Below are positions 1 to 1,981 of a DNA stretch of 23,370 nucleotides, piece by piece (the stretch's first letter is position 1; each line of letters opens with the position of its first letter). The DNA comes from a virus. Below the pieces are notes generated by a model that saw only the letters and a list, made by a program, of their open reading frames with translations, was not told where the DNA came from and ran no database searches. The stretch is taken from IMG/VR virus record IMGVR_UViG_3300030329_000089, positions 1 through 23,370 of that record; one strand, written 5' to 3'. The translations under genes were made by a program, and so were the position numbers.

Positions 1-63
1 TTCTTATATACACTCAGGCCCACATGAGAAGCAATTTGGACCTATAAATAAATATTTTATAAA

Positions 64-88
64 TGTCAAGTAAAAAAATAGCTTGACA
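64..88. repeat. Inverted repeat overlapping the P1 -35 box
   Basis: TGTCAAG at 64-70 and CTTGACA at 82-88 are perfect 7-base inverted copies with an 11-base A-rich spacer. The right arm contains the P1 -35 hexamer. The left arm is therefore the same hexamer facing leftward. It could be an operator, or the -35 of a divergent promoter whose best leftward -10 (TATAGG, read from 46 to 41) is poor. I favour an operator or chance symmetry over a real divergent promoter. Confidence 0.4.
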
Positions 89-111
89 AATAGGTTTCTC
101 GCGGCCATAAT
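83..111 (+). promoter_or_regulatory. Upstream sigma70-type promoter (P1)
   Basis: TTGACA at 83-88 and CATAAT at 106-111 are separated by exactly 17 bases. The -35 is a perfect match and the -10 matches five of six. An A-rich tract at 71-80 lies just upstream, where a proximal UP element would sit. Transcription would begin near 118 and run into terS. The -35 overlaps an inverted repeat, TGTCAAG (64-70) and CTTGACA (82-88). This is a sequence match only; no transcript is shown. Confidence 0.7.
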
Positions 112-123
112 GGGGTAAGAGGG

Positions 124-152
124 TTGACTTTAGTCTTAAAATATGTTATAAT
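124..152 (+). promoter_or_regulatory. Downstream sigma70-type promoter (P2)
   Basis: TTGACT at 124-129 and a perfect TATAAT at 147-152 are separated by 17 bases, so this is close to the ideal host sigma70 promoter. Expected start is near 159, giving a leader of about 150 bases before terS. The first pair of CTTAAG repeats begins about 14 bases after that start, a position where a bound protein could block or modulate the promoter. It lies 41 bases downstream of P1 in the same orientation. The prediction rests on hexamers and spacing alone. Confidence 0.8.
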
Positions 153-171
153 AATGGTATTAAAGGTTACA

Positions 172-257
172 ACTTAAGAACACTTAAGAAACCAGAGAGT
201 AATTCCTTTAATATTTACACTTTAATTAACAATCTCAAACACTTAAGAACACTTAAG
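172..257. repeat. Two copies of a 17-bp element (paired CTTAAG palindromes)
   Basis: ACTTAAGAACACTTAAG occurs identically at 172-188 and 241-257. Each copy contains two CTTAAG palindromes whose starts are 10 bases apart (173 and 183; 242 and 252), about one helical turn. The copies are offset by 69 bases and separated by AT-rich DNA. The arrangement lies between promoter P2 and terS. It looks like a multi-site protein-binding region: an operator, or a terminase recognition site near the packaging start. Which of these is inference. Confidence 0.8.
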
Positions 258-309
258 TATATCCAGACTTCCATTGTTTTGTCTTTTAAAATAAAAAAGG
301 GAAAAAATA

Positions 310-711
310 ATGGGCAAAGATAGGGTAGATATGTCTAACCAAAATGTTCCGGAGGTTAAAAGACCAAGAGGTAATCCTAATTTTTACAAAGGGATGCCCT
401 CTCTGAACCCTAAGGGTCGAACTAAAGGTTCAGTAAATAAGTTCACTAAGTTATCCAGGGAACTTATGTCCTCTAAGGGACCGGAGATAGTAGACAAAGT
501 AATAGAACTAGCTCTGGAGGGGGATAGACATTGTCTCAAAATGTGCCTGGACCGGATCATCCCGGTATCTAAAGCAGTAGAGATTAAACACGAACATGAA
601 GATTTAGGTATAAACATTATAGTCGAATCAGTAAAGGCTATAGAACGTCAGGAAGAAGAAGAATATAAAGTCATAGAGGGAGAGATTACCAACCGGATTG
701 AAGATGAGTGA
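310..711 (+). CDS. terS: Terminase small subunit (probable, DUF5681-like)
   Basis: This 133-residue protein would recognise phage DNA and hand it to the large terminase. Residues 18-45 carry a basic N-P-N-F-x-K-G / N-P-K-G-R-x-K-G-S-x-N-K segment. It is followed by a helical part with a G-D-x-x-x-L-K-M-x-L-D-R pattern, typical of DUF5681-type proteins found just before terL. The tail is very acidic (EEEE near residues 115-118). ATG 310 has AAAAGGGA about 8 bases upstream; a second in-frame ATG at 331 has no comparable ribosome site, so 310 is preferred. The stop overlaps the terL start by 8 bases. Family assignment rests on the motif and on position; a different small DNA-binding protein is the main alternative. 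Confidence 0.75.
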   Translation: MGKDRVDMSNQNVPEVKRPRGNPNFYKGMPSLNPKGRTKGSVNKFTKLSRELMSSKGPEIVDKVIELALEGDRHCLKMCLDRIIPVSKAVEIKHEHEDLGINIIVESVKAIERQEEEEYKVIEGEITNRIEDE

Positions 712-1981
712 TATAAATGTCACACTTCATTCGGCACAAATGGAAATCTTTAAGAGTCCGAAGAGGTTCAAGATAGCTTCCTGTGGACGTAGATTTGGTA
801 AATCTTATTTAGCCGCATGGCTCCTGATAATTAAGGCATTACAATCTCAAGAAAAGGATGTATTCTATGTAGCACCTACTTTCCAACAAGCTAAAGATAT
901 TCTTTGGAGCATCTTAAAGGACATTGGAAGGGAGGTGATCAAGTCTACCCATGAGAACACGGCTACGATTACATTAATTAATGATCGTAAAATATATCTC
1001 AAGGGTTCAGATAGACCGGATACATTACGAGGAGTGGGCTTATCGTTTGTAGTTCTTGATGAGTATGCCTCAATGAAACCGGAAGTGTGGGAGATGATCC
1101 TAAGACCCACACTGGCAGACGTAAAGGGTGAAGCGTTATTTATAGGGACTCCGGCTGGTAAAAATCATTTCCATAAATTATGGGTAGATGCACAGCTAGA
1201 GGAAAATAAAGAGGATTGGGAAGCATTTCAGTTTACTTCCACAGCAAATACCTTTATTGACCCTAAGGAAGTCGAAGCGGCTAAGAGAACAATGTCCACT
1301 CAGGCGTTTCGACAGGAATTTGAAGCCACCTTTGAATCCTTTTCGGGTGGTATTTTTAAAGAGGAATGGGTTAAGTATGCTGAAGAAGATGTATTTCAAG
1401 ATGTATCAAAAGTACAAGGTCATTATGTCATATCTGTTGACCCGGCTGGGTTTGAAAAAAGTGACAAAGAACGAGGACTCAAAAGTTCAAGACTAGATGA
1501 AACAGCTATCTCCATTGTCAAGATTGTCCAGGATGAATGGTACGTTAAGGATATTCTACACGGGAGATGGGGCATTAAGGAGACAGCAGAAAAGATACTT
1601 GATTCCGCTGAAGATGTCAGCGCAACTACAGTGGGTATAGAATCAGGTTCTCTAAAGAACGCCATCATGCCCTACCTTGAAGACTACATGAGGATGAGGG
1701 GTAGGTGGATAAATATAACCGATGTTACTCATGGTGGTAAAAAGAAACAGGACAGAATTATTTGGTCACTTCAGGGCCGTATGGAACACGGTAAGATTAA
1801 ACTAAGAAAGGCAGATTGGAATCATCGTTTTATCTCTCAAATGTTGGACTTTCCAAGCCCCTTGTCTCACGATGACTTACTGGACTCTCTGGCCTATATT
1901 GACCAAGTATCTGTAGCGGATTTCGCTCAATCAATCGACGTAGAGGAATGGGAACCATTAGATAATGTCTCAGGATATTAG
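704..1981 (+). CDS. terL: Terminase large subunit (packaging ATPase and nuclease)
   Basis: This is the motor that translocates and cuts DNA at the portal. Numbering from ATG 704 (425 residues), the Walker A is GRRFGKS (28-34). Walker B is FVVLDEY (115-121, with D119 and E120), and the coupling motif is IGTPAGKN (147-154). The RNase H-like nuclease has acidic positions D246 (SVDPAG), E313 (GIESG) and D390/D391 (HDDLLDSLAY). A K-K-Q-D-R-I motif (348-352) also fits the nuclease half. All expected catalytic residues are present, so the enzyme should be active. A TTG two codons upstream (698) would extend it, but ATG 704 is more likely. It overlaps terS by 8 bases and portal by 17, which suggests translational coupling. 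Confidence 0.97.
   Translation: MSDINVTLHSAQMEIFKSPKRFKIASCGRRFGKSYLAAWLLIIKALQSQEKDVFYVAPTFQQAKDILWSILKDIGREVIKSTHENTATITLINDRKIYLKGSDRPDTLRGVGLSFVVLDEYASMKPEVWEMILRPTLADVKGEALFIGTPAGKNHFHKLWVDAQLEENKEDWEAFQFTSTANTFIDPKEVEAAKRTMSTQAFRQEFEATFESFSGGIFKEEWVKYAEEDVFQDVSKVQGHYVISVDPAGFEKSDKERGLKSSRLDETAISIVKIVQDEWYVKDILHGRWGIKETAEKILDSAEDVSATTVGIESGSLKNAIMPYLEDYMRMRGRWINITDVTHGGKKKQDRIIWSLQGRMEHGKIKLRKADWNHRFISQMLDFPSPLSHDDLLDSLAYIDQVSVADFAQSIDVEEWEPLDNVSGY

Follow-up and report, generated by a model that had tools for sequence, protein, structure and literature searches.

Short repeated DNA elements at promoters and near terminase genes have been described in several systems. The met boxes of MetJ are several short tandem palindromes that lie on one face of the helix, vary in number and are found at promoters; Lambda cosB and phage pac sites consist of binding boxes that recur in the neighbourhood of the terminase genes. 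In several phages of Alphaproteobacteria, promoters are controlled by CtrA via clustered TTAA half-sites with the arrangement TTAA-N7-TTAA (PMC9437464), and phage HK022 carries the antitermination RNAs putL and putR just downstream of two divergent phage promoters (PMC9378689). Here we describe paired CTTAAG boxes in a stretch of 23,370 nucleotides of viral DNA (positions 1 to 23,370 of IMG/VR record IMGVR_UViG_3300030329_000089), hereafter called the window. With the met boxes they share short tandem palindromes on one helix face, in variable number and at promoters; however, the period is 10 bp instead of 8 bp, the hexamer is CTTAAG, and we identified no ribbon-helix-helix regulator. With cosB and pac sites they have in common repeated boxes near the terminase genes, with the CtrA clusters repeated TTAA-containing half-sites at phage promoters, independence of packaging and possibly a host regulator, and with putL/putR a length of about 70–100 nt, a place immediately behind two divergent main promoters, and hairpin potential.

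Paired CTTAAG boxes in the window and its relatives

The features of the window that are relevant here are the following, with transcription starts inferred from promoter spacing:

21 to 43, forward strand: CACATGAGAAGCAATTTGGACCT, one half of a cos-like element that is conserved and whose G-run partner lies just beyond the window start, as seen in relatives (L004:4273)
83 to 111, forward strand: promoter P1, TTGACA-N17-CATAAT; a degenerate tandem box pair is found at its start in many relatives, none at the window's own P1
124 to 152, forward strand: promoter P2, sigma-70-type, TTGACT-N17-TATAAT with TG before the -10; upstream of the boxes and conserved among relatives
173 to 178, no strand: CTTAAG box 1, at about +15 relative to where P2 is predicted to start; kept in relatives
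183 to 188, no strand: CTTAAG box 2, 10 bp from box 1; the spacing peaks at 10 across 96 leaders
189 to 240, no strand: AT-rich stretch between the box pairs; its length and sequence vary among relatives
242 to 247, no strand: CTTAAG box 3
252 to 257, no strand: CTTAAG box 4, 10 bp from box 3
310 to 711, forward strand: putative small terminase subunit gene (terS), 133 aa, DUF5681; directly downstream of the boxes, assigned by position
698 to 1981, forward strand: large terminase subunit gene (terL), the anchor for finding relatives

The 17-mer ACTTAAGAACACTTAAG at 172–188 has an exact second copy at 241–257, offset by 69, and the four hexamers begin at 173, 183, 242 and 252. The original prediction had described just this repeat, AT-rich DNA between its copies and a position between promoter and terS, and all three statements are correct: the 52 nt separating the copies (189–240) have a G/C content of about 25% by direct count, the strong promoter P2 (124–152) lies upstream and the gene at 310–711 downstream. 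A search of the 23.6 kb record for the 16-mer core CTTAAGAACACTTAAG, tolerating as many as three mismatches, gives these two sites only. Single CTTAAG hexamers, on the other hand, are not strikingly frequent (15 in the window versus 9.7 ± 2.9 expected); the distinctive property is the pairing of CTTAAG and not the frequency of the single hexamer. No match was obtained in Rfam at gathering thresholds, and a literature search for CTTAAG together with terminase and promoter returned nothing. The AlphaFold model of the putative TerS is poor (pLDDT 52), and no fold search was based on it. Between box 4 and the start codon (window 264–308) many relatives (e.g. L012, L034, L044, L048) show a hairpin, GUCUUCC-stem-GGGNAAAG, over the ribosome-binding site; it is also present in box-less relatives, and translational control of terS is possible.

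Relatives were collected with TerL as search anchor, so that the boxes played no part in the search: 80 each for the TerL of the window, a second and a third TerL. These form three clades, between which TerL is about 45–57% identical. The second and third TerL queries were taken from loci found by the box pattern, and clades B and C are therefore selected as having box-bearing members; individual loci within each clade were not selected for boxes. An exact CTTAAG pair, 9–12 nt apart, was found within 1.4 kb upstream of terL in 36 of 52, 26 of 54 and 34 of 43 dereplicated loci of the three clades. Conservation in relatives had been proposed as a check, and with 96 of 149 loci positive when all clades are pooled (metagenomic contigs dereplicated by simple identity cut-offs, the clades not being independent samples), lack of conservation can no longer be held against the repeats. 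Controls contained such pairs in only 4 of 2980 shuffled sequences (0.1–0.2%) and in none of 148 stretches of downstream coding DNA. When all 64 palindromic hexamers were compared for pairing, CTTAAG was found paired in 58 of 102 representatives and every other hexamer in two at most; pairing of any palindrome occurred once in 101 coding controls. In total the 96 leaders hold 205 exact boxes (10 in shuffles). Taken together, the pattern of CTTAAG pairs is not due to chance.

The elements had also been called phased, which holds within a pair but not between pairs. Among the 69 pairs spaced 8–11 nt in the 96 leaders, 56 have a spacing of 10, nine of 9 and three of 11, whereas the distance from box 2 to box 3 ranges from 47 to 89 nt, with no helical phasing. 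Double pairs are common in viral contigs, with at least 120 stretches, and almost lacking in 257 Gb of genome sequence from bacteria and archaea, with 13 stretches, several of the latter being repeat arrays within single MAGs. The tandem CTTAAG-N4 arrays noted in MAGs of Akkermansia, Tannerellaceae and Alistipes (L419, L421, L422, L425) look unrelated. We also considered CTATAG or another palindrome as a substitute box in the box-less relatives; this was rejected, as no pairing was found.

The distribution of sites over whole genomes was read in complete or near-complete relatives (34–40 kb), where paired clusters are almost confined to two places, namely the leader of P2 and the beginning of the divergent promoter that drives the primase/polymerase operon. 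This second cluster, at the replication-operon promoter, lies 3.4–4.5 kb from the P2 boxes; the record of the window ends short of it, and it is covered by L003 (record G001), which has an identical TerL. The replication promoter has the form TTGACA-N17-TANNNT-A-CTTAAG. Its first box directly follows the -10 (about -5 to +1) and is therefore mostly upstream of the expected +1; more boxes are found 40–70 nt further on, in some cases three or four that repeat every 10 nt. P1 carries degenerate pairs in direct repeat, e.g. CCTAAG-N4-CCTAAG, in 14 of 23 clade A and 11 of 26 clade C representatives (about 1.5% in shuffles). Two further observations concern the surroundings of the replication promoter. 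In a relative with identical TerL a tRNA-Cys (GCA) gene lies right after the boxes (L083:3084-3159) and is lacking there in the close relatives L103 and L104. In clade A the replication promoter is held by the 3' end of a small zinc-ribbon gene (phrog_10364; G001:2800-2994 and homologues).

A probable DNA operator and a possible leader RNA

The best reading of the CTTAAG pairs, to which we assign a probability of roughly 55% on the sequence evidence, is that of a tandem-box DNA operator. The boxes are conserved, specific for one hexamer, spaced by 10 bp, restricted to promoter starts and vary without RNA-type compensation. Tandem-box operators typically have short palindromes that recur at helical intervals where promoters start, and this arrangement is found here. 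The original prediction had offered a multi-site operator acting at P2 as its second option; our data favour this option and extend it to the replication-operon promoter and to P1. In such an operator a dimeric regulator would read each palindromic hexamer, in its degenerate form roughly C-Y-W-W-R-G, and as boxes 10 bp apart would share one helix face, dimers could bind side by side. At P2 two box pairs flank 50–80 bp within the initial transcribed region; an array of the same boxes covers the start of the divergent replication-operon promoter, and the degenerate form is found at P1. Since the boxes occur at late, replication and P1 promoters, one regulator could time the late and the replication operons together. 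Protein binding, repression and an action on both operons are presumed in this scheme, whose simplest mode would be that host RNA polymerase is blocked or roadblocked on promoters that are otherwise near consensus.

Several observations speak against the operator. The distance between the pairs is not helically phased, as mentioned above, no phage regulator family was found, and in some relatives (L091) the boxes at the replication promoter are lost while the stem formed by the leader arms is kept. The leader arms are complementary at both sites, which an operator alone does not predict. This complementarity raises the possibility that the elements act as leader RNA: the nascent transcript of each main operon would form a long hairpin with the boxes at its base, and would act in cis on host RNA polymerase in the manner of HK022 put, the RNA precedent that comes closest by position, or would protect or process the mRNA as a 5' hairpin or RNase III site. 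We regard this explanation as possible though rather doubtful. Arms of the same leader pair better than arms taken from different leaders, both at P2 (-19.9 versus -15.9 kcal/mol) and at the replication promoter (-14.0 versus -8.9 kcal/mol); the permutation p is about 5e-5 at both sites, and the effect at P2 is still significant with the boxes masked. The leaders also fold better than shuffled sequences (mean z -2.9 and -2.5; coding control -1.0). In some leaders of the replication promoter stems reach up to 18 bp, with both arms changed yet matched, and G:U pairs are in weak excess over C:A mismatches (22 versus 10, p = 0.05). Moreover, a leader RNA would require no phage protein, and none was found, and the elements stand behind two divergent promoters as do putL and putR (PMC9378689); the position just downstream of the main promoters that characterizes put-type elements is observed here as well.

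Other results argue against pairing in RNA. The antisense strand gives an equal folding z (p = 0.83 for P2). In the P2 arms C:A exceeds G:U (112 versus 54), as expected without RNA pairing, and the spacers show the same (18 versus 3). Variants of the boxes are not compensated, neither between partner boxes (0 of 19) nor within P2 pairs at spacing 10 (0 of 27). The first box of the replication promoter is largely untranscribed; the P1 boxes share one orientation and therefore cannot pair; and no terminator-like site is present in window 1–700. In contrast to HK022 put, the boxes here are conserved without compensation, and the first replication-promoter box is placed mostly outside the transcript. 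A local tetraloop hairpin, CUUAAG-N4-CUUAAG, was likewise rejected, as no compensation was seen. Because box variants are uncompensated as RNA pairs, sequence-specific DNA binding fits the boxes best. The leader arms nevertheless co-vary, and a hairpin may coexist with the operator, at least at the clade A replication promoter. Very long, near-perfect leader hairpins of -34 to -53 kcal/mol were noted in the P2 leader of L508 and also in L463, L464, L533 and L580; a few of these have no CTTAAG pair.

Regulator candidates, terminase and packaging

If the boxes are an operator, a regulator should exist in the phage or in its host. Comparing the presence and absence of phage gene families between 18 box-bearing and 9 box-less genomes, we found none that tracks the boxes. 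The zinc-ribbon gene (phrog_10364) was considered as regulator and rejected: it is present in 18 of 18 box-bearing but also in 6 of 9 box-less genomes, and is therefore not diagnostic. Among the families annotated and clustered here, which do not comprise every gene of every genome, there is neither an RNA polymerase nor a repressor gene. As no phage gene family was found to track the boxes, a host protein is plausible as regulator. As a special case of the operator, the boxes could be bound by a CtrA-like response regulator of the OmpR type from the host, which would tie late and replication genes to host physiology. The closest described precedent is CtrA with its clustered TTAA sites in promoters of phages of Alphaproteobacteria (PMC9437464). 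The boxes likewise contain TTAA, repeated every 10 bp, a phage-encoded regulator that tracks them was not found, and the nearest isolate DNA polymerases come from Pelagibacter and Roseobacter phages (identity to proteins of isolates is about 52% at most, this value being for DNA polymerase of Pelagibacter phages). However, the arrangement here is TTAA-N6-TTAA between fixed C and G, and exact pairs are found 56 times at N6 and three times at N7. With N6 instead of N7 the boxes do not belong to the CtrA-site family, and we consider this special case improbable. The boxes further differ from the sites of the pili- and flagellotropic Alphaproteobacteria phages (PMC9437464) in being full CTTAAG palindromes, in lying at and downstream of the start of two main divergent promoters, and in belonging to a phage group without close isolate.

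The first option of the original prediction was that the terminase recognises the DNA here, the boxes being a pac or cosB-like site for TerS. The boxes sit just upstream of terS, and a bendable spacer framed by paired repeats is reminiscent of cosB or pac boxes. The boxes do not, however, follow TerS: the TerS proteins of L073, L075 and L079–L082 are 73–77% identical to that of the window, yet these relatives have no box pair at P2, whereas L066, with a TerS of 66% identity, carries all four boxes, and the boxes persist in clades B and C, where TerS is 28–32% identical or undetectable. The boxes are also not confined to the packaging locus, since they recur 3.4–4.5 kb away at the replication operon. 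Finally, a separate cos-like element is conserved, box-less relatives included, which together with the other differences sets the boxes apart from Lambda cosB and pac sites. The CTTAAG boxes are thus probably not a terminase site, and we regard this option as very unlikely. The cos-like element consists of a G-run (GGGGGGACC) followed about 45 nt on by CACATGRGAAGCAATTTGGACC (window 21–43; L004:4273-4341). In clade A, relatives that lack boxes included, it is found 157–300 bp ahead of the P2 -10; clades B and C have a related G-run. A few contigs start 6–46 nt inside the G-run element, and the enrichment of contig ends is weak. The G-run/CACATGRGAAGCAATTTGGACC element is a better candidate for the packaging site (cos) than the boxes, and probably is that site. 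Least probable of all is that the boxes are iterons of a replication origin beside the promoters, as suggested by tandem short repeats and AT-rich DNA next to promoters: each genome has them at two or three promoters, where they invariably begin in the transcription start region, and we identified no replication initiator protein.

Implications for the phage group

The phages described here form a large, uncultured group without close isolate. A box that is common to late, replication and P1 promoters in three deep clades would represent the cis half of the putative master switch of this group. In a broader and rather speculative scheme, which we consider unlikely as a whole, these phages, in which neither an RNA polymerase nor a regulator of their own was recognised, would place the late and the replication operon under a single regulator of the host, and CTTAAG arrays over hairpin-forming leaders would be DNA operator and leader RNA in one. 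The CTTAAG boxes can be used as DNA bait to fish for the regulator. Should this regulator be a host protein, the timing of infection would be tied to the state of the host, as has been proposed for CtrA in other phages.
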